A DNA stretch of 64,000 nucleotides, taken from contig NC_011899.1 of the NCBI RefSeq assembly GCF_000020485.1, forward strand, positions 2,016,501-2,080,500. Direction: 5' to 3'. The notes beneath the pieces are model-generated. The model was not told the DNA's origin and searched no databases. It saw nothing but the letters and a program-made list of their open reading frames with translations. Position numbers and translations under genes: made by a program. Of the stretch, positions 24,345-39,888 are shown piece by piece. Positions within the stretch are counted from its first letter, which is position 1; every line of letters starts with the position of its first letter. This stretch comes from Halothermothrix orenii H 168 (lineage in GTDB: Bacteria > Bacillota > Halanaerobiia > Halanaerobiales > Halothermotrichaceae).

Positions 24345-26750
24345 TTATAGATTAACCTTTATTTTCCTGGCTTTTTTATTGACCTTTAATCTTAACTCAC
24401 CTCTCTGATCATCATAAACATAGTCATTGAGTTCAGAACCATCTACCATAATACTGGAAGGTTCCCGGGTCAGGTTTTTAAAGTTCAGGATATAATCAGG
24501 ATAAGGGAGCTTATAACCGGTCTTGAAGGGATTTATGTTAAAGGTGAGGCCATTATCGCTATAATTGTATTTAAATTCTACCAGAGAGTACTTTCCATTC
24601 TGATAATCAAAGCTATACCCATCATCCTCATATAACTGGTAGCTATCTTCTTCAACTTCAGAACTGAGATATATATTTAATTCCAGGTCACTATTCTCCT
24701 TTTCTCCCACATAATTAACGGATTCAGTCAATGGTATAATACTCCCTGCCTTAATATAAACGGGCAGAGTATCAAGAGGGGCTTTTGCTATAATATTTTT
24801 TCCACCTTCATATTTCTCTCCGGTCCAGAAATCAAACCAGATACCTTCCGGTAAATAGACCAGCCGTTCTTTACGGTCTGGTTCGTAAACCGGGGCTATC
24901 ATAATACTGTCCCCATACAGATACTGATCGGAGATATTATAAGTTCTGGGGTCAAAAGGGTATTCCATAACCAGAGGCCTCATTACCGGTAAGCCTTCCT
25001 GACTGGCCCGGTAAAATAAACCGTAGGTATATGGTAATAAACGATAGCGCAGTTTAATATATTTCCTTATAATAGCCTCATATTTTTCACCAAAGGACCA
25101 GGGTTCCTGATCAAGGGCCCCGATAGTACAGTGATTTCTAAAAAGAGGCATAAAAGCTCCCAGCTGGGTCCACCTGGTCAAAAGCTCACCATTGGAATCA
25201 CCGGTAAAGCCACCAACATCAGTTCCGGCAAAGGTCACTCCCGACATCCCCAGGTTCATTAACATGGGGACTGCCAGTTTTAAATGTTCCCAAAAACTTC
25301 TGTTGTCCCCGGTCCAGACCGCTGCATACCTCTGAATGCCGGCAAATCCAGCCCTTGATAAAATAAATGGCCGCTCCTGAAGGTGTTTTTTAAGGCCCTG
25401 GTAGGTTGCTTTATTTTCAAGGAGACCATATACATTATGAAAACGTCTATGAGTCCCCATATCACCGTCATTTTCATGGACGACATTAAGGTCCATGGTT
25501 GAGGTTTCGTTAAATACAGAGGGCTCATTCATGTCATTCCATATCCCTTTAACTCCCTGATCAACATATTTTTTGTGCAAATCACCCCACCATTCCCTGA
25601 CTTTCTGGCAGGTAAAATCGGGAAATACTGTTTGACCCGGCCAGACTTTCCCGACAAAGGGTCTTCCATCAAGATACTTACAAAAATAGTCTTCTCTCAT
25701 TCCTTCCCGGTACACCTCATATTCGGGGTCTACTTTAACACCGGGGTCTATGATATTAACAATTTTAAAACCCTCTTCTGATAAATCAGATATCATTTCC
25801 CCAGGACAGGGAAACTCTTCTTCATTCCAGGTAAAAACCCGGTAGCCATCCATATAATGAATATCGAGGTGAATTACATCACAGGGAATATCCTTTTTCC
25901 TCAATGTTCTGGCAATTCTTTTAACTTCACTGTCAGGATGGTAACTATAACGGGACTGGTGATAACCCAGGGACCATTTAGGTGGTAACGGCATCCTTCC
26001 TGTTAGCAGGGTATATTTTGATATTACCTCTTTAAGGTCCGGACCGTAAATGAAATAATAATCCATTTTACCTCCTTCGGCCCAGAATGAATAATAATCT
26101 TTATTACCTGAAGCCAGATCGAAATGACTTTTATAGGTATTATCAAAGTAAATACCATAGGTCTTCCCTTTATTAAACCCAACTAAAAAGGGAATTGATT
26201 TATAGAGGGGATCAGTACTCTCAACATGGGCCTCAAAGACATCAGAATTCCACATTGTATACTTTTTACCCCTTTTATCGAGGAAACCTGTTTTTTCTCC
26301 AAGGCCGTAAAACCTTTCGCCGGGCTTAACTTCTTTCCAGGCCCGGACTTCATTACCACTCCATCCCAGGGCCCGTCTGGAGTAATCCCGGTTAATTAAA
26401 TTCCCCTCCTTATCATAAAAACCGAGGCCAAATTTATGTCGGTTAACCCTGACTATTAACCGATCGGTCTCAATGTTAAGGACCTTTTCTGTTTCATTAA
26501 TTGTAAAATCAGAGTAGGCCAGGTTGTGATCCACGACAGCACAGGTGGTCTCCAGGCTGGCTTTATCCCTTTTCCCCATAACCACCCTGACTATATCAGC
26601 AGTCAAAAACTCTAAAACAACTTCTCCTTTTTTCAGCTTAAAAGAAATCCTGTTATCTTTCCTGCAATAATCCAGAATTTCATTTAAGATAAAATAACTT
26701 TTTGAACCTGATTTTTCCGGGCCTTTGTCCATAATTACCTCACTGTTCAT
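24345..26750 (-). CDS. glycoside hydrolase family 31 alpha-glucosidase
   Basis: About 801 residues, cytoplasmic (no signal peptide), hydrolysing alpha-linked glucose or related sugars. GH31 landmarks are FYGLGEKTGFLDKRG, PPKWSLGYHQSRYSY, DVIHLDIHYMDGYRVFTW, the nucleophile motif GIWNDMNEPSVF, SRAGFAGIQRYAAVWTGDN (acid/base Asp) and GADVGGF-like FAGTDVGGFTGDSNGEL. A C-terminal beta-sandwich with APVYEPDRKERLVYLPEG follows. ATG at 26750 follows AGGGGTG at proper distance. It is the last gene of an fRMsr-Lrp-GH31 operon (gaps of about 16 and 24 bases). Confidence 0.93.
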   Translation of the reverse strand: MNSEVIMDKGPEKSGSKSYFILNEILDYCRKDNRISFKLKKGEVVLEFLTADIVRVVMGKRDKASLETTCAVVDHNLAYSDFTINETEKVLNIETDRLIVRVNRHKFGLGFYDKEGNLINRDYSRRALGWSGNEVRAWKEVKPGERFYGLGEKTGFLDKRGKKYTMWNSDVFEAHVESTDPLYKSIPFLVGFNKGKTYGIYFDNTYKSHFDLASGNKDYYSFWAEGGKMDYYFIYGPDLKEVISKYTLLTGRMPLPPKWSLGYHQSRYSYHPDSEVKRIARTLRKKDIPCDVIHLDIHYMDGYRVFTWNEEEFPCPGEMISDLSEEGFKIVNIIDPGVKVDPEYEVYREGMREDYFCKYLDGRPFVGKVWPGQTVFPDFTCQKVREWWGDLHKKYVDQGVKGIWNDMNEPSVFNETSTMDLNVVHENDGDMGTHRRFHNVYGLLENKATYQGLKKHLQERPFILSRAGFAGIQRYAAVWTGDNRSFWEHLKLAVPMLMNLGMSGVTFAGTDVGGFTGDSNGELLTRWTQLGAFMPLFRNHCTIGALDQEPWSFGEKYEAIIRKYIKLRYRLLPYTYGLFYRASQEGLPVMRPLVMEYPFDPRTYNISDQYLYGDSIMIAPVYEPDRKERLVYLPEGIWFDFWTGEKYEGGKNIIAKAPLDTLPVYIKAGSIIPLTESVNYVGEKENSDLELNIYLSSEVEEDSYQLYEDDGYSFDYQNGKYSLVEFKYNYSDNGLTFNINPFKTGYKLPYPDYILNFKNLTREPSSIMVDGSELNDYVYDDQRGELRLKVNKKARKIKVNL

Positions 26751-26774
26751 TACCATCACCCCTATCCAGTAACC

Positions 26775-31797: not shown

Positions 31798-32871
31798 TTA
31801 ATCCCCGATATAATTTTTATAAACATAAGGTGAGGTCATGGCCCTGAGTATACCTCCATAATCAAGATTAAACTCAAGTTCATCCCCAACACTCAGGTCG
31901 TAACGGGCTTCAGTAATGTCAACAATTAAATGGTCACTGCTAGCCCCTATGACCTCAACCCCATCTAAAACCGGATCTAATCCTGATATTTTTACATCCT
32001 GCCTGCCTACAGCCAGAATCGCCCTCCGCCTGATCCCCCTGTCTTCAAAACGTGGTTTATTTCCAAATGCATCCCGCCCGATTCTTCCCCGGGGAACTGA
32101 AGGCTTATCTTTAACCTCTATTATACTAGCTGTCAGGGTAATACAATTCTGATTGACTCCTTCAATTATTTCGTTAAAGGTAGGGTAAACCCCCCTCAAT
32201 ATACCCTCACCGACCCTGAGGTTATTAACACCAGAAGGGAGTTCATTACGATCCAGCAAATAGGTAGTAGCTGAATTACCCCCTGAAATTACAGGCAAAT
32301 GGACACCATATTTTACCTCCATTTTTTCTTTTAATTCAATCAAAAGATTGGTATTCTTATAGGTGGGCAAAACCCCTCCATAACAACCGACATTGGTTCC
32401 CAGACCCTTTATATTAATCCCTGGAAGGTCTATAATTTTGCCAAAAAATTCAGAAATATCTTCCGGTAAAACGCCCTCCCTTAAATCACCGACATCAACC
32501 ATAACGATAATATCATGAGACCGGTTAACTTTAATGGCCTCCCGGGACAAAGCCTCAATAACGGTTACTTCACTATTTAAACTTATATCAGAGTATTTAA
32601 TAACATCAGATACTTCGTCAAGCCGGGGTAGTCTTAATAACATTAATTCTACTCCTATACCGGCTTCTCTTATTTTTTTTAAATTATAAAGCCGGGAATC
32701 ACCCAGGCTTGTAAGTCCGGCCTGAACAAAGGTTTTTATTACTTTTAAATCCCCGGCCATTACTTTGACAACACCGGTCAAAGAAATGCCTTGTTGTTGA
32801 CATTTCCTGTTAAATATAGAGGCATTTTCCCTGATCCTGGGCAAATTAATATTGACTCTTGGAGTTTTCAT
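31798..32871 (-). CDS. alanine/ornithine racemase family PLP enzyme
   Basis: 357 residues, fold type III PLP enzyme close to clostridial ornithine racemase (Orr). The N-terminal barrel has the PLP lysine in LTGVVKVMAGDLKVIKTFVQ and the family GLTSLGDSRLYNLKKI; phosphate-binding GGNSATTYLL and LRVGEGILRG follow. The C-terminal beta domain (GRDAFGNKPRF, SSDHLIVDITEARYDLSVGD) carries the second catalytic region. Its ATG overlaps the hydE stop by one base (TAATG), so it is translated from the hydE operon. A D-amino-acid-producing role is expected, but substrate (ornithine, lysine, alanine) is not readable. Confidence 0.85.
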   Translation of the reverse strand: MKTPRVNINLPRIRENASIFNRKCQQQGISLTGVVKVMAGDLKVIKTFVQAGLTSLGDSRLYNLKKIREAGIGVELMLLRLPRLDEVSDVIKYSDISLNSEVTVIEALSREAIKVNRSHDIIVMVDVGDLREGVLPEDISEFFGKIIDLPGINIKGLGTNVGCYGGVLPTYKNTNLLIELKEKMEVKYGVHLPVISGGNSATTYLLDRNELPSGVNNLRVGEGILRGVYPTFNEIIEGVNQNCITLTASIIEVKDKPSVPRGRIGRDAFGNKPRFEDRGIRRRAILAVGRQDVKISGLDPVLDGVEVIGASSDHLIVDITEARYDLSVGDELEFNLDYGGILRAMTSPYVYKNYIGD

Positions 32872-33923
32872 TATACCTCACCCTTTTCTATTCTGGGGCT
32901 ATGACCATAGTCAGTACCAACCACCCTCCCCAGTGATGTTATGATACTACCAATACACTGGCGACAATTTTCCGGCTCTTCATCAACACAGATTTTAGCA
33001 GGATAAAGCTCATAAAGAGGTCGATACTTCCCCCGGGTAACGTTGGGCATAACAACATTGGCCCCGGCCTTTAAGGCCTTCTGCCTTCCTTCAGGATCGA
33101 GACTCCCCAGGGCTGTGGTTCCCGGTATATGGGCAAGGGGCAGTAATAACCTGGTTATGGCAATAGTTTTTAAGGCCATCTCTACAGAACCGTTATGGTA
33201 ATCCTTTAAGGGGGTATCAGGATTAACAACCAGAGGTCCCAGTCCTACCATATGAAGATCCAGCTCTTTAAACAATAATATATCCCGGGAAATACTCTCT
33301 TCATCCTGGTCCGGTAACCCGATTAGATTACCGCTTCCCACCTGATAACCAAGTTCTTTTAACCATCGTAGTCTCTCAATCCTTTGCTCAAGGGACATAC
33401 CGGGATGAAGCCGGTGATATAGTCCGGGGTCAGCAGTCTCATGTCGGATGAGGTATCTATCTGCTCCCGCCTCTCTCCACACTTTATATTCTTCATATTC
33501 CCGTTCCCCTATACAGAGGGTTATAGCAGTATCCATCCTGTTTTTAATTTCTCTAATAATCCATTCCACCATATCGGTATCATAATAGTCATCCTCACCC
33601 GACTGGAGTACCACTGTTTTATACCCCAGTTTAGTGGCTTTCTCAGCCATGGATACAATCTCCTCAGGCTGTAACCGATAGCGCTCCAGCCGGTGGTTAT
33701 CCCTTCTTAAGCCACAGTATTTACAGTTTTGTTTGCAATAATTGGAGAATTCAATAATTCCCCTTAGATAAACTGTATCCCCCATGTATTTAGACCTGAC
33801 CCTGTCCGCGGCTTTGTATAGTTTTTTCAGGTCTTCACCCCTGGTTTTCAATAATTTAACAATTTCTCCTCTGGTTAAAGCATGTTCCCTTTCTGCCTTA
33901 AGTAGTATCTCATCCAGGTTCAT
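32871..33923 (-). CDS. hydE: [FeFe]-hydrogenase H-cluster maturation radical SAM enzyme HydE
   Basis: Radical SAM maturase needed to build the diiron subsite of [FeFe] hydrogenase. The SAM cluster motif is FSNYCKQNCKYCGLRRDN (CX3CX2C). It is followed by LERYRLQPEEIV, KTVVLQSGEDDYY, ADRYLIRHETADP, GSGNLIGLPDQ and NVVMPNVTRGKYRPLYELYP, matching Thermotoga HydE throughout. About 350 residues. The ATG at 33923 is preferred, nine bases after GGAGGAG and one base past the GNAT stop; an ATG eight codons upstream overlaps the ribosome site. HydF and HydG lie 17 kb away. PylB is the nearest alternative, but the C-terminal cysteines (CVDEEPENCRQC) fit HydE. Confidence 0.92.
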   Translation of the reverse strand: MNLDEILLKAEREHALTRGEIVKLLKTRGEDLKKLYKAADRVRSKYMGDTVYLRGIIEFSNYCKQNCKYCGLRRDNHRLERYRLQPEEIVSMAEKATKLGYKTVVLQSGEDDYYDTDMVEWIIREIKNRMDTAITLCIGEREYEEYKVWREAGADRYLIRHETADPGLYHRLHPGMSLEQRIERLRWLKELGYQVGSGNLIGLPDQDEESISRDILLFKELDLHMVGLGPLVVNPDTPLKDYHNGSVEMALKTIAITRLLLPLAHIPGTTALGSLDPEGRQKALKAGANVVMPNVTRGKYRPLYELYPAKICVDEEPENCRQCIGSIITSLGRVVGTDYGHSPRIEKGEV

Positions 33924-33924
33924 C

Positions 33925-34734
33925 TCAACCATCTCCTCCGGCATCAAATTGTACTATTTTCCATTGCCCTATCTCCCTGAAACCGAGCCTCCTGTAAATT
34001 CTACCGGCTTCTGGATTGTCATAAAAAAGACATGGTTTTTTGTTTTCATCTAATAAATCTTTACAGAGTTTATAAACACAGTGTGTGGCCAGTCCCTGTT
34101 TCCGGTAACCGGCCAGGGTAGCAACCCCGACAACCATTGCTGAAAAACTGTTTTCCGCTGATGTAGAGGCACTGGCAATAATCTTTCCCTGATCATTTTC
34201 AATAAAATATACCCGGCCACTACCCTGTTTCAACTTCTGGACCAGGGCATCTCTGTTAACCGGAATATCACTAAATTCCTTAATACTTTTACGGAAATCT
34301 ATTATCCGGTCAACATCATCAAGATTAGCCCTTTTAATATCATATTGTTTGTTGAGGTCCAGTCCTGTATTTACCTGGTCCATACTGGCAAAATACTGGT
34401 GTTTTTCATTTTTTATATCCCTGTCTATATATGTTAATACCCCATCGACAATATCCTTTTTGCCTGACAATATCTTTGCCCCCAGAGATATCAGGGGCGC
34501 AAACTTCTTTAACAGTTCCGGTCTGCGGGTATATGGTATAAAGGATGAATAAAACTTGAGTAAAACCCCGTGAACATGGTTATCCTCATCAATAACTCCC
34601 CAGAGTGTCTGAAAATCAGAATTATAGCCGAAGTTTTCTATATCACCTATTATAAACAAGTTAAACTCCGGTTCTTCAGACAGAAACTCCATAACATATT
34701 TATTATCTTTTGTATCCAGTTTTCTAAAAACCAT
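33925..34734 (-). CDS. GNAT family N-acetyltransferase
   Basis: About 269 residues with two GNAT-like halves. The C-terminal half carries the acetyl-CoA motif (MVVGVATLAGYRKQGLATHCVYKL, with the Q/RxxGxA loop as RKQGLAT) and ends with CLFYDNPEAGRIYRRLGFREIG. The N-terminal half (YVMEFLSEEPEFNLFIIGDI) resembles the degenerate first domain of FeeM/ZmaR-like tandem GNATs. Substrate unknown. It sits between a HAD phosphatase and hydE with short gaps, so it is in the same operon. ATG at 34734 behind GGGGGAGAG. Confidence 0.82.
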   Translation of the reverse strand: MVFRKLDTKDNKYVMEFLSEEPEFNLFIIGDIENFGYNSDFQTLWGVIDEDNHVHGVLLKFYSSFIPYTRRPELLKKFAPLISLGAKILSGKKDIVDGVLTYIDRDIKNEKHQYFASMDQVNTGLDLNKQYDIKRANLDDVDRIIDFRKSIKEFSDIPVNRDALVQKLKQGSGRVYFIENDQGKIIASASTSAENSFSAMVVGVATLAGYRKQGLATHCVYKLCKDLLDENKKPCLFYDNPEAGRIYRRLGFREIGQWKIVQFDAGGDG

Positions 34735-35469: not shown

Positions 35470-36510
35470 TTACAGCTCCAGAATATTTTTGTGAACATTA
35501 TCCAGGCTCTCTTCCAGTAAAATATCATAGCCAACAAAATATTTATCCTTAGAAGGAGTCATGTTTTTAAAGATACAATCAAACATCTTTTTCCCGGCAA
35601 TATATCCCTGCATAAACGGCCTCTGGTAGACAATGGCCTGTACGTACCCTTTTTTAACACAATCTTCTATTTCTTCATTTAAATCATTGGCAATCACTAT
35701 TACTTCCCTATTTATTCCCATATCAACCAGAGCCTTAACGGCATATTCAGTTCCGAAAGTAGTATAGATACCTGTTATTTCCTTATCAAATTTCCTTCTG
35801 GTGATATCATATATTTTCTCAAGGCTATATTCGTAATAAGGCCCGGTAGTTTCTATGTGGGAATATTCCCCTATTTTATCGAGAAAACCTTTTAACCGTT
35901 CCCGGACTGAATAAAAATCATAACTTGAAGATATAACGAGTATTTTACCCTCTTTTTTTATAAACTTTGCCATAAGCTCAGCGGCTACCCGTCCCAGCTT
36001 ATAGTAATTGGGGCCAACGAAAAAATTGCGCTCTGAGCCCTTAATATCCATATCCAGGGTTGCTACCGGTATATTTTTATCTTTAAACCGTTTAATAACT
36101 TCCTTTACCTGTTCCATTAATGGAGTAAGGATTATTCCATCTATCTGTCTTTCATCTAAAAACCCTTCAATTTGATTAAATTGCCTTTCAGGCTCTTCAG
36201 CCCCGAGCTCAACAATCTTCAATTTTACACCATAGTTTTTAAACTCCCGGTAGGCTGCCTTTAAACCCCTGATTATTTCACTGTTGAATTTTTCATTATA
36301 TGACTTAACTACAAAAGCATAAATATACATCTTCTTTTTCATGGCCAGAGATTTAGCAATAGGGTTTACATTATACCCCAGTTCCCTGGCAACCTTCAAA
36401 ACCTTTTTGCGGGTCCCTTCATCTACTGGCCCACTATTATTTAAAACCCGGGCTACTGTAGTCCGGGAAATACCGAGTCTATCCGCAATATCCTTCTGAG
36501 TTACACCCAT
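35470..36510 (-). CDS. LacI family transcriptional regulator
   Basis: About 346 residues. N-terminal LacI HTH and hinge: VTQKDIADRLGISRTTVARV, then LNNSGPVDEGTRKKVLKVARELGYNVNPIAKSLA. The periplasmic-binding-like sugar domain follows (IYAFVVKSYNEKFNSEIIRGL, GIILTPLMEQVKEV, ITGIYTTFGTEYAVKALVD, YVQAIVYQRPFMQGYIAGKKM). The ATG at 36510 follows GAGGTGA by six bases; a GTG three codons upstream is less well placed. It lies between the hydE operon and the Mch operon and is a candidate binder of the palindromes near mch, pgi or moxR; this is inference. Confidence 0.92.
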   Translation of the reverse strand: MGVTQKDIADRLGISRTTVARVLNNSGPVDEGTRKKVLKVARELGYNVNPIAKSLAMKKKMYIYAFVVKSYNEKFNSEIIRGLKAAYREFKNYGVKLKIVELGAEEPERQFNQIEGFLDERQIDGIILTPLMEQVKEVIKRFKDKNIPVATLDMDIKGSERNFFVGPNYYKLGRVAAELMAKFIKKEGKILVISSSYDFYSVRERLKGFLDKIGEYSHIETTGPYYEYSLEKIYDITRRKFDKEITGIYTTFGTEYAVKALVDMGINREVIVIANDLNEEIEDCVKKGYVQAIVYQRPFMQGYIAGKKMFDCIFKNMTPSKDKYFVGYDILLEESLDNVHKNILEL

Positions 36511-36685
36511 GTACTTCACCTCTTTTTAACCTGCATTTAGTACTTAAAAATAAAAATAATATACTAAAATTATTTAATCCAGATATTGATTACCTCTATA
36601 ATAAATAATATATTATATTCAATCCTTAATCAATGTTTTTTCCTTTTCCTGCAAAGAACTAAAATTATTTTTTCCAGAATAAAGT

Positions 36686-36715
36686 AAAAAAGAAGCCGGC
36701 CCCGGCTTCTTTTTT
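36686..36715 (-). terminator. intrinsic terminator after the Mch operon
   Basis: Stem AGAAGCCGG (36691-36699) with CCGGCTTCT (36702-36710), flanked by A5 and T5 so it can work on both strands. It begins four bases after the stop of the RibD-like gene. Confidence 0.85.
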
Positions 36716-36718
36716 GCT

Positions 36719-37684
36719 TTATTCACCTTTTATTCCGTAAAGTAACTTATGCCTGAAGTAAAAGAAATGAGAACTGTGAGCGTGGATAGAAAGAACTTCA
36801 CTATGGGGATGGTCTTTTGAAGTAAAGGATTCTTCTCTGTTCCCCAGACACAGGGCCTTCCCTCCGATATAAATACAGGAGTAATTTAAAAACATCTCAT
36901 CAAGAAGTTTATTCTTGATCAGGTGATGGGTATAGGTAGGGGATTCCACAAGAAGTTTTTCAATCCCTGCCAGTCTTAAAACCTTCAAAAATACCTCTGA
37001 ATTGGTAGTCTGCTTACTGCCAGTGACAATGACCGGGACCTTTTCCCCCAGAGCTTTAAATCCCCGGGTAACCTCTTCTTTATCAATTTCTTCCAGAGAG
37101 TTATAGGGCCCGATAATCTCCACAGGTTCTTTAAAATTTTCTTTAACCCATTCCATCCCGGAAGGTGATGTAAAGATGGCAACAGGCACCTCAGGGGCCT
37201 TAAACAGCTTATGGTCAAAGGGTATATCCCGTCCATCCAGTGAGGCCACTATATTTAAAGGAACTTCATCTAGCCCCGCCTCTACTCTGGCATCTTCCAG
37301 TTCCTGGTCAAAAACATGGGCAGTCATATCGGCCTCTTCCTGCATGGTACCGGCTCCAACCAGAATACCATCACAATTAGCCCTTAGCATATTCAATACC
37401 CAGAAATCAGCTCCAGCTCCATCCGGGTCCAGAAAGTTTTTTTGGGCAATAAATGGCCCTTCTGGAGCATCTTCAAAGGCAATTTTACCATCCAGTGAGG
37501 TTACAAAAGAAGCCAGGGTCAGAGGCCTGTCGTCCGGAATCCTATCAAATTTAAGTTCTCCATAAACATAGTTTACTTTATCACTTGGCAATCCCTTAAC
37601 CTCAAATTCTTTGAGCGAATCACTTTCATATACCCTGGATAACTTTATTTTATCCCTGTCAAAAGGAATTTTTACTAATGACAT
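36719..37684 (-). CDS. RibD C-terminal / DHFR-like reductase domain protein
   Basis: 321 residues. Residues about 55-285 form a RibD_C reductase domain: PLTLASFVTSLDGKIA, NMLRANCDGILVGAGTM, VPLNIVASLDG, KVPVIVTGSKQTT and GIEKLLVESPTYTHHLIKNKLLDEMFLNY. An N-terminal extension of about 50 residues has no recognised domain, and no deaminase domain is present. RibD_C members reduce riboflavin intermediates or pterins (the bacterial dihydromethanopterin reductase DmrA is a relative). With mch at the head of this operon, a pterin reductase is an attractive but unproven reading. ATG behind GGGAGGGAG. Confidence 0.75.
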   Translation of the reverse strand: MSLVKIPFDRDKIKLSRVYESDSLKEFEVKGLPSDKVNYVYGELKFDRIPDDRPLTLASFVTSLDGKIAFEDAPEGPFIAQKNFLDPDGAGADFWVLNMLRANCDGILVGAGTMQEEADMTAHVFDQELEDARVEAGLDEVPLNIVASLDGRDIPFDHKLFKAPEVPVAIFTSPSGMEWVKENFKEPVEIIGPYNSLEEIDKEEVTRGFKALGEKVPVIVTGSKQTTNSEVFLKVLRLAGIEKLLVESPTYTHHLIKNKLLDEMFLNYSCIYIGGKALCLGNREESFTSKDHPHSEVLSIHAHSSHFFYFRHKLLYGIKGE

Positions 37685-37730
37685 TTATATTCTCCCTCCC
37701 TACTGTCTTACAGTTTTATTGAAATGAACC

Positions 37731-38462
37731 TTACAGCTGCCCTCCTCCACAGACAGCCAGCATATCTCCGGTAATAAAACCACTATCTTCAGTTGCTAAA
37801 AACAGGGCTGCATTGGCAATATCATCTACAGTACACATCCTTTTCAGGACATACATTTCAGCCATCTCTTTCCTGACCTGATCCGGGTCATCTGCTTTTT
37901 CAATTCTATCTTTAATCATTGGGGTTTCAGTTAAGCCCGGCATTATGGCATTTACCCTGATATCAGGTCCAAGGTCTAAAGCCATACATTTAGTAAACAT
38001 TACAACGGCTGCTTTGGAAGGACAGTAAGCAATCCGGTCAGGGATAGGTTTTACCCCCAGATCGGAAGCAATATTTATAATACTGGCCCCGGGGCGTTTT
38101 TTTAACTCCCCAACAGCCGCCTTACAGGTATTGAAGGTCCCGAATACATTTACTGCAAACTGCTTTTCAAATTCTGCAGGAGAGGTTGTCTCTATATTTC
38201 CTACCCCGGTAATCCCGGCACTATTAACGACTATATCAAGTTGGCCAAATTTGGCAATACCCTCTTCAACAACTTTCCGGGCCTGATTATAATCTGTTAA
38301 ATCTGCCTTTACATATAGAGTGTTTTCGCCCTTAAGGTTCATATCATCTTCAATTCCACAACCAATAATCCTGGCACCCTCATCAAGAAATTTCCTGGCT
38401 ATACCCTCTCCAATCCCTGAACTTGCTCCGGTGATTAAAGCAACTTTACCTTCAAGTTTCAT
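37731..38462 (-). CDS. short-chain dehydrogenase/reductase
   Basis: 243-residue classical SDR. Rossmann loop ALITGASSGIGEGIARKFL, NNAG-like VVNSAGITGVGN, catalytic Ser in INIASDLG, and YxxxK in AYCPSKAAVVMF. C-terminal IMPGLTETPMI and GFITGDMLAVCGGGQL complete the family pattern. The substrate is unknown. It is the middle gene of a three-gene minus-strand set (mch homologue, SDR, RibD-like), 46 bases upstream of the RibD-like gene and 132 bases after mch. GGGAGGGA ribosome site. Confidence 0.88.
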   Translation of the reverse strand: MKLEGKVALITGASSGIGEGIARKFLDEGARIIGCGIEDDMNLKGENTLYVKADLTDYNQARKVVEEGIAKFGQLDIVVNSAGITGVGNIETTSPAEFEKQFAVNVFGTFNTCKAAVGELKKRPGASIINIASDLGVKPIPDRIAYCPSKAAVVMFTKCMALDLGPDIRVNAIMPGLTETPMIKDRIEKADDPDQVRKEMAEMYVLKRMCTVDDIANAALFLATEDSGFITGDMLAVCGGGQL

Positions 38463-38578
38463 TAAATTCCCTCCCTGGACTTAGTTTAAACCTACCTGAA
38501 GTATACCCGAGACAGGCCTGATTAATATATTTTTCCATTAATCGTAATTAGAATATTTATAGTAATATTAAATACTAC

Positions 38579-38603
38579 TCAGGCTAAACATTATTTAGCC
38601 TGA
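38579..38603 (-). terminator. hairpin at the mch stop codon (possible attenuator)
   Basis: A 10-bp perfect stem (TCAGGCTAAA at 38579-38588, TTTAGCCTGA at 38594-38603) with a 5-base loop, overlapping the stop codon of mch. The minus-strand tail GTAGTATTTAATATT is only weakly T-rich. It may be an mRNA-end stabiliser or partial terminator before the SDR gene rather than a full stop. Confidence 0.5.
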
Positions 38604-39566
38604 AACAGTATCATTAAAAGACCTGGCTAAAATTTCAGTATTTATTTTACCGGCCTTATGTATCTTACCTGTCTTGGTATTAACAATGACTACACTGGCC
38701 GGAGAATACATTTCCATAGGAACTTGATAAAAATCACAACCGGCTTCCAGGTATATTTCTTTAAAAGGCTTACCATAAGTAGAAGCCTTATCTGAAGTAA
38801 TTTTATTAACTATATCAGCAATTTTATCGTCATCCCAGCAAACAGTATAGGTAGCCTGACCTCCATATATAAGAACATCATTTAACCTTCCCATGGCAAT
38901 TAATTCATTATCAATACAGGGGGGTATTACACAGAAACCCTGGGCCTGAATTATTGTGTCCAGATCAAACCCTTCTTCCATTAAGCGGTGCAGGGTCTGT
39001 TCTAAAATTCTGGCTGACACCTGAACGGAACAGGCCAGACTGGAACTGGGAGCTACCAGTAAATACAGATCTTCTGGCTGGACCCGGCAGGCCTCGGCCA
39101 GTTCACTGGCCTGTTCTACGCTAACAGGGTCTTTAGATTCGATAGTAATAATGGCCTGGTGATATTTATCTTCATAATCACTGTATTTCTCCATCCAGTC
39201 TCCGGGCTTTCTTCCCAGGGTCCGACCTGGTCCGGCAACAATTGGAGCAAATTTTCCAGGTTTTAATTCCCAGCCAGAAATATCACACCCGGCCAGGGAT
39301 AAAACGGCATGGTCAACACTTACATTAACTGCAGGATAGTACACTCCATCTATCATTTCCGGGAATGTTTCAAAAGAAACCTGCCCAATACCACCAAATA
39401 AAATCTCTGCCATCATTCTGGCAGCTTCCCAGCTGCCTCTGACCTCCTGTCCCAGGTCGATCACAGTAGTTCCATTTTCTAATGTTGACACTTCAATCTT
39501 CAATTCTTCTTTTCTTAAAATCATATCATTAACAATTTCCATTGCCTTTTCGTTTACACTGATCAT
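38595..39566 (-). CDS. mch: methenyltetrahydromethanopterin cyclohydrolase (Mch) family protein
   Basis: 323 residues, the length of archaeal Mch, which hydrolyses methenyl- to formyl-tetrahydromethanopterin. Collinear features: ISVNEKAMEIVNDMILRKEE, LENGTTVIDLGQEVRGSWEA, ILFGGIGQVSF, GPGRTLGRKPGDW, YLLVAPSSSLACSVQVSARI, CVIPPCIDNELIAMGRLND and a C-terminal GKPFKEIYLEAGCDFYQVP plus VIVNTKTGKIHKAGKIN. The ATG at 39566 is six bases after AGGAGGGA; an ATG-like start nine codons upstream lacks a site. In bacteria Mch is known mainly from methylotrophs and planctomycetes, so its presence here is unexpected. It may act on H4MPT or another pterin. No fae, mtd or fhc genes are in the window. Confidence 0.85.
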   Translation of the reverse strand: MISVNEKAMEIVNDMILRKEELKIEVSTLENGTTVIDLGQEVRGSWEAARMMAEILFGGIGQVSFETFPEMIDGVYYPAVNVSVDHAVLSLAGCDISGWELKPGKFAPIVAGPGRTLGRKPGDWMEKYSDYEDKYHQAIITIESKDPVSVEQASELAEACRVQPEDLYLLVAPSSSLACSVQVSARILEQTLHRLMEEGFDLDTIIQAQGFCVIPPCIDNELIAMGRLNDVLIYGGQATYTVCWDDDKIADIVNKITSDKASTYGKPFKEIYLEAGCDFYQVPMEMYSPASVVIVNTKTGKIHKAGKINTEILARSFNDTVSG

Positions 39567-39829: not shown

Positions 39830-39851
39830 TTTATGTTCGCGCGAACATAAA
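39830..39851. promoter_or_regulatory. 22-bp perfect palindrome, probable operator at the mch start site
   Basis: A perfect inverted repeat with 11-base arms TTTATGTTCGC / GCGAACATAAA, centred at 39840/39841. It begins a couple of bases downstream of the predicted mch transcription start, the classic place for repressor binding. The central GTTCGCGCGAAC is symmetric and GC-rich in a very AT-rich region. The binding protein is not known. Confidence 0.75.
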
Positions 39852-39859
39852 CTATATTA

Positions 39860-39888
39860 ATAATAACGCATTATTTTTTATATGTCAA
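39860..39888 (-). promoter_or_regulatory. mch: sigma-A-type promoter of the mch operon
   Basis: On the minus strand TTGACA (plus 39883-39888) and TATTAT (plus 39860-39865) are separated by exactly 17 bases. The start would be near 39853, leaving a leader of about 285 bases that contains the palindrome, the A/G-run motifs and a 23-bp tandem repeat. No other gene lies in the 473 bases between mch and the PHP gene. Confidence 0.75.

Follow-up and report, generated by a model that had tools for sequence, protein, structure and literature searches.

The closest described relatives of the protein considered here are the canonical methenyl-H4MPT cyclohydrolases (Mch; NCBIfam TIGR03120), represented by the structures 1qlm and 4gvq of the M. 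kandleri and A. fulgidus enzymes, respectively. Within Mch a catalytic role is reportedly played by Arg183 and Glu186, as set out in a 2012 study of the A. fulgidus enzyme. Beta-RFAP synthase catalyses the committed step towards methanopterin. Genes for H4MPT in Firmicutes, including Halanaerobium, have been noted before (PMC5020050), and these bacterial H4MPT/MFR clusters, like those of G011 and its relatives, carry Mch together with MtdB, Fhc, Ftr, MptA and Mfn genes and beta-RFAP synthase. Where such a cluster is complete, in Halanaerobiales and elsewhere (L012-L016, L019, L055), its first gene encodes what by eye resembles an MttB-family methyltransferase, hinting at methylamine-type substrates. 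A different kind of precedent is offered by the haloarchaeal Mch (HVO_2573), which is assumed to use tetrahydrofolate (PMC8305020). This is a case of an Mch without the classic H4MPT pathway, and hence a precedent for a shift of cofactor, although in the tree described below a haloarchaeal MAG sequence groups with the canonical archaeal Mch. To our knowledge no SDR or RibD_C partners of a haloarchaeal Mch have been recognised.

Halothermothrix orenii H 168 is a salt-loving fermenting bacterium, belonging to the same order as Halanaerobium, whose genome is a single contig of 2,578,146 bases with one Mch; the window discussed here is a stretch of 64,000 nucleotides of that genome. An earlier note on this DNA had described genes for an Mch homologue, an SDR and a RibD_C-family reductase, and all three open reading frames are found on the minus strand at the places it gave (Table 1). 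The mch frame starts with the ATG at 39566, with AGGAGG immediately upstream. Along the minus strand the order is promoter/operator, mch, SDR, RibD_C, terminator hairpin and lacI. The LacI gene and the operator and promoter upstream of mch belong to the same unit as the three genes. The promoter-like element comes from a scan that was overall no richer than shuffles, and the weaker hairpin between mch and SDR may serve as an attenuator. Downstream of the LacI region lies HydE, the FeFe-hydrogenase maturase (window 32871-33947; 376.7 bits against a cut-off of 254.6). A GH31 alpha-glucosidase (window 24345-26759), about 10 kb from the Mch operon and with no operator copy found nearby, is probably unrelated to it.

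Table 1. Features of the mch-B operon of H. orenii, in window coordinates.
Feature	Coordinates	Strand	Basis or remark
mch-B, methenyl-H4MPT cyclohydrolase homologue, 323 aa	38595..39566	-	ORF, profile, fold, tree
SDR oxidoreductase, 243 aa, TGASSGIG and YCPSK motifs	37731..38462	-	ORF, profile, L075 homologue
RibD_C-family reductase, 321 aa, family-specific C-terminal motif HPH(S/A)...H..F...R	36719..37684	-	
LacI-family regulator	35470..36519	-	profile; 50% to LacI after RibD_C in L075
Predicted LacI-type operator, perfect palindrome TTATGTTCGCGCGAACATAA, upstream of mch	39831..39850	.	
Promoter-like TTGACA-17-TATTAT, 11/12	39860..39888	-	operator just downstream
Intrinsic terminator-like hairpin 3' of the RibD_C gene	36686..36715	-	
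Weaker hairpin with T-rich tail, between mch and SDR	38578..38604	-	

The LacI-family protein probably controls the mch-SDR-RibD_C operon. Searched for across the whole H. orenii genome with at most one mismatch, the core of the palindrome TTATGTTCGCGCGAACATAA gave four sites, whereas its reversed form, used as a control, gave none. The three sites outside the mch operon are at genome positions 375671, 1017890 and 1390602; of these, in no stated order, one stands before a permease-GH31-permease run, one before an MFS-GH13-GH31 run that itself lies 3' of its own LacI paralogue, and one 17 bases before a URO-D methyltransferase-like gene. A second LacI in the genome (L129_6), 42% identical to that of the operon, may own some of the operators. 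The second permease of the operator-linked operon (L128:10554-11999) has an in-frame TGA after residue 101, reflecting a pseudogene, a sequencing error or readthrough.

In a scan of named genomes the exact three-gene linkage was found in one other genome only, a Caloramator MAG (L075), where the run reads GH13-permease-Mch-SDR-RibD_C-LacI and is headed by two palindromes, TGTTCGCGAGAACA, similar to the H. orenii operator. The shared genes stand in the same order, with identities of 78% for Mch, 74% for the SDR, 61% for RibD_C and 50% for LacI. The linked permease has no Pfam, NCBIfam or PDB match, although by eye alone it gives the impression of being NCS2-like; its family also includes both permeases in the operator-linked operon of H. 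orenii (35-41%), and in G414 (L117) a permease of this family adjoins a RibD_C gene. Further three-gene operons were sought near G414, and no Mch was found in 24 genomes of its order. In a sample of 398 Bacillota genomes, 26 have Mch and 14 the RibD_C family, with both present in 11 (Fisher p=3e-12), and in the same sample the RibD_C family is found in none of the nine Mch-bearing genomes that have beta-RFAP synthase. The earlier proposal that the three genes form a unit is thereby upheld, and the lack of conserved linkage that would have spoken against it did not materialise, the neighbourhood being kept in L075.

That the first gene encodes a homologue of Mch is clear from its profile and fold. 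The protein covers the whole Pfam MCH model (E=1.4e-113), scores 309.1 bits against a cut-off of 228.8 for TIGR03120 and is matched by sequence to 1qlm (E=2.5e-71), while its predicted structure (pLDDT 92) aligns with 4gvq over its whole length, at a Z of 44.2 and an rmsd of 2.4 across 312 residues with 35% identity. Both R183 and E186 (A. fulgidus numbering) are present within the aligned stretch VSARILEQ, as they are in the alignment of every full-length group of Mch-B, the name coined here for the clade to which the protein belongs. The homology claimed in the earlier note therefore stands, and the loss of active-site residues that it had named as fatal to its idea has not occurred. The segment at 93-95, however, is D-I-S in H. 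orenii in place of the canonical Q-K/Y-A, the archaeal form being Q-K-A and that of most bacterial H4MPT clusters Q-Y-A. Other Mch-B proteins have Q-I-A/S, Q-F-S or H-V-A, and position 94 is I, F or V throughout the clade, the canonical Lys/Tyr having been lost. The residue following E186 is mostly Q or A in Mch-B, with Q in H. orenii, against T in canonical Mch. Retention of R183 and E186 together with an altered 93-95 segment fits an enzyme that may have kept cyclohydrolase chemistry and applied it to a different substrate. Short Mch-like proteins of 240-271 aa directly adjoin full Mch-B in a number of loci (L051_10 at L051:9397-10203, L056_14, L064_9, L065_6 and L066_7); because Glu186 is gone from all five in the alignment, these may be non-catalytic partner subunits.

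In a maximum-likelihood tree built from 22 canonical sequences, archaeal ones included, plus Mch-B, canonical Mch is split from all Mch-B with a UFBoot of 100. The H. orenii protein groups with the Mch of L075 and with the second Mch of two Halanaerobiales MAGs (bootstrap 100). On these sequences Mch-B is a distinct bacterial subfamily, and the phylogeny with archaeal and bacterial members that the earlier note had called for thus rules out the archaeal-type origin that the same note had suggested, since the protein falls in a separate bacterial clade (bootstrap 100). In a plasmid collection 36 records carry Mch, all below 60% identity; two copies retrieved from it could be placed and both fall among canonical Mch, and the neighbouring genes are those of H4MPT clusters.

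The two clades also differ in the capacity of their genomes to make the cofactor. Among the genomes in the tree, 12 of the 14 that carry canonical Mch exceed the cut-off for beta-RFAP synthase, as against one of 16 with Mch-B, and this sole exception carries both kinds of Mch. A search of the H. orenii genome for H4MPT-biosynthesis genes, as the earlier note had advised, gave 19.6 bits for beta-RFAP synthase (TIGR00144) against a cut-off of 113.5 and no match for Ftr (PF01913), which rules out an H4MPT pathway dispersed elsewhere in the genome. With neither of these in H. orenii, and no beta-RFAP synthase in 15 of the 16 Mch-B genomes, canonical H4MPT chemistry in H. orenii is unlikely, in agreement with the caution of the earlier note that the classic pathway is not implied. 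Distant Ftr-like genes (82-96 bits), along with some closer Ftr genes, are seen in other genomes without beta-RFAP synthase (L118, L119, L120, L123, L121 and L122), where they adjoin amidohydrolases, an FGGY kinase, an aldolase, zinc alcohol dehydrogenases and ECF or BMP importers, suggestive of a repurposing parallel to that of Mch-B.

The neighbourhoods of Mch in Bacillota likewise form two sets. In canonical loci, on labels given by homology and by eye, the neighbours are MtdB, Fhc subunits, Ftr, MptA and Mfn-type genes. Those of Mch-B are E1a/E1b/E2 genes of the 2-oxoacid-dehydrogenase type, lipoate enzymes, PF01979 amidohydrolases, FMN_red and BMP or ECF importers, with some loci adding an M20 peptidase or FAD oxidase, and Mch-B itself is often duplicated beside the E1/E2 complex. 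Among 21 Mch-B and 15 canonical loci, E1/E2, AmidoH1 and BMP/FMN_red are found with Mch-B only, and a co-directional SDR is present in 11 of the former and none of the latter. Some Mch-B clusters also include FolB and a methyl-H4folate:corrinoid methyltransferase (MeTr), both above cut-off, which point to pterins. From their gene content, Mch-B clusters look like an undescribed way of using pterin-like ring compounds. Elsewhere in the H. orenii genome the search for an E1/E2 complex returned only transketolase-like matches; without this complex, and with amidohydrolases that may not be orthologues of those in the clusters, H. orenii would have a short version only.

The RibD_C protein lies above the gathering cut-off of PF01872 (48.9 against 24.1 bits) and far below every NCBIfam equivalog cut-off, including those of the riboflavin-pathway DAROPP/RibD reductases (TIGR01508, 41.4 against 186; TIGR00227, 39 against 150). 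Its model has the RibD_C fold of the Rib7/RibD reductases and Rv2671 (Z 22-25), with the nearest structures being the M. mazei Rib7 (Z 24.6) and a dihydropteridine-bound form of Rv2671 (Z 23.8). It differs from these in having ESP(S/T)Y for EGG, an extra N-terminal part and the HPH C-terminal motif, which is invariant in its family. The protein is most naturally read as reducing a compound that resembles a pterin or a pyrimidine; dihydromethanopterin reductase (DmrA), to which the earlier note had linked its wider family, is a putative role only. The family is multiplied, a single genome having as many as five copies, and its genes frequently adjoin a PF01979 amidohydrolase and a BMP importer and are sometimes near corrinoid proteins (L105, L109, L110, L112); none was found in viral contigs. 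The SDR matches adh_short_C2 (E=5e-57) and has the YX3K motif, with TGASSGIG in place of the TGX3RXG that marks the SDR pteridine reductases PTR1/PruA (PMC13259868), and so is without the pteridine-reductase arginine.

What, then, is the operon for? The reading favoured here, to which we give a little short of an even chance, is that of a LacI-controlled salvage or catabolic module and not an H4MPT C1 pathway. At its best this reading has the Mch-like cyclohydrolase acting on a pterin-like heterocycle, possibly glucosylated, within a sugar-regulated module. A sugar-conjugated heterocycle of this type would be imported by a permease and freed by an alpha-glucosidase, the genes for both lying at other loci that share the operator. 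There would follow two consecutive steps in the manner of Mtd and Mch: the SDR would form or remove a C-N double bond of the ring, and Mch-B, in a reversible hydrolysis, would convert a cyclic amidinium into a product that is N-formylated or has its ring opened. RibD_C, drawing on NAD(P)H, would reduce an intermediate of the dihydropteridine or pyrimidine type, and LacI would sense the substrate and let go of its operator. As a guess, the most concrete candidate substrates are the biopterin alpha-glucosides of cyanobacteria, in which alpha-glucosylated tetrahydrobiopterin is abundant (PMC3546692). A more specific and rather doubtful version is that Mch-B, SDR and RibD_C belong to an undescribed anaerobic pathway that takes up pterins such as these glucosides and degrades or recycles them with recruited C1-cofactor enzymes, namely Mch, Ftr, FolB and the RibD-like reductase, the lipoyl E1/E2 complex serving, where the set is fuller, to cleave the side chain. 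As for the undescribed pterin or C1 module of the earlier note, the context favours a heterocycle being salvaged or broken down under sugar-type (LacI) control over a biosynthetic or C1-carrier function.

A role in folate metabolism is nonetheless conceivable, since the H. orenii genome has FolD and no FolA (DHFR, PF00186) was found in it. In such a C1 module Mch-B would hydrolyse methenyl-tetrahydrofolate, the SDR would be a methylene-tetrahydrofolate dehydrogenase and RibD_C would replace the missing dihydrofolate reductase, in keeping with the resemblance of its model to Rv2671, whose structures hold dihydro- and tetrahydropteridine, and with the shift to folate supposed for haloarchaeal Mch (PMC8305020). 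Yet FolD does both steps, LacI-type control by an operator common to an alpha-glucosidase/permease operon ill suits housekeeping, RibD_C rises to five copies per genome beside deaminases and importers, and the duplication of Mch-B beside the E1/E2 complex is hard to place in this scheme, which is on balance unlikely. There is likewise a low probability that the genes serve in purine, pyrimidine or flavin catabolism, with Mch-B opening an imidazole-like ring to a formamide, as in FAPy formation, Ftr-like proteins moving the formyl group, and AmidoH1 and RibD_C behaving as do the deaminase and reductase of RibD. The presence in Mch-B clusters of BMP-type importers and of amidohydrolases resembling 8-oxoguanine/SAH deaminases, the adjacency of RibD_C and AmidoH1 in several loci, xanthine-dehydrogenase-like genes seen by eye in L062 and L078, and the closeness of RibD_C to Rib7, a diaminopyrimidine reductase, are consistent with this, but the linked permease family, lacking a Pfam or PDB match, shows no nucleobase transporter, no purine-degradation genes were shown in the H. 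orenii genome, and FolB and MeTr direct attention to pterins.

Use or degradation by Mch, SDR and RibD_C of methanopterin imported from archaea could explain why several Mch-B genomes that lack beta-RFAP synthase have Mch and distant Ftr homologues (82-96 bits), but is very improbable given that H. orenii has no Ftr, that the canonical Lys/Tyr at position 94 is lost and that no link to methanogens was seen. Scarcely credible is a relic, horizontally acquired and without present function, for although the spread is patchy (any Mch in 26 of 398 Bacillota genomes), the catalytic residues are kept, the frames are intact, the operator palindrome is perfect and the 78/74/61% identity is to a distant lineage, L075, with the same order.

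In the open papers searched, neither the Mch-B clade nor its clusters were found to be described, nor was an orphan Mch with such partners. Automatic annotation names Mch-B proteins as methenyl-H4MPT cyclohydrolases, implying a C1 metabolism like that of methanogens in organisms that do not make the cofactor, and matches to PF02289 without beta-RFAP synthase should not be taken in that sense. If the salvage or catabolic reading is true, anaerobes would own a dedicated route, of which the literature searched held no description, for pterin-like compounds, built from the enzymes of C1 metabolism.
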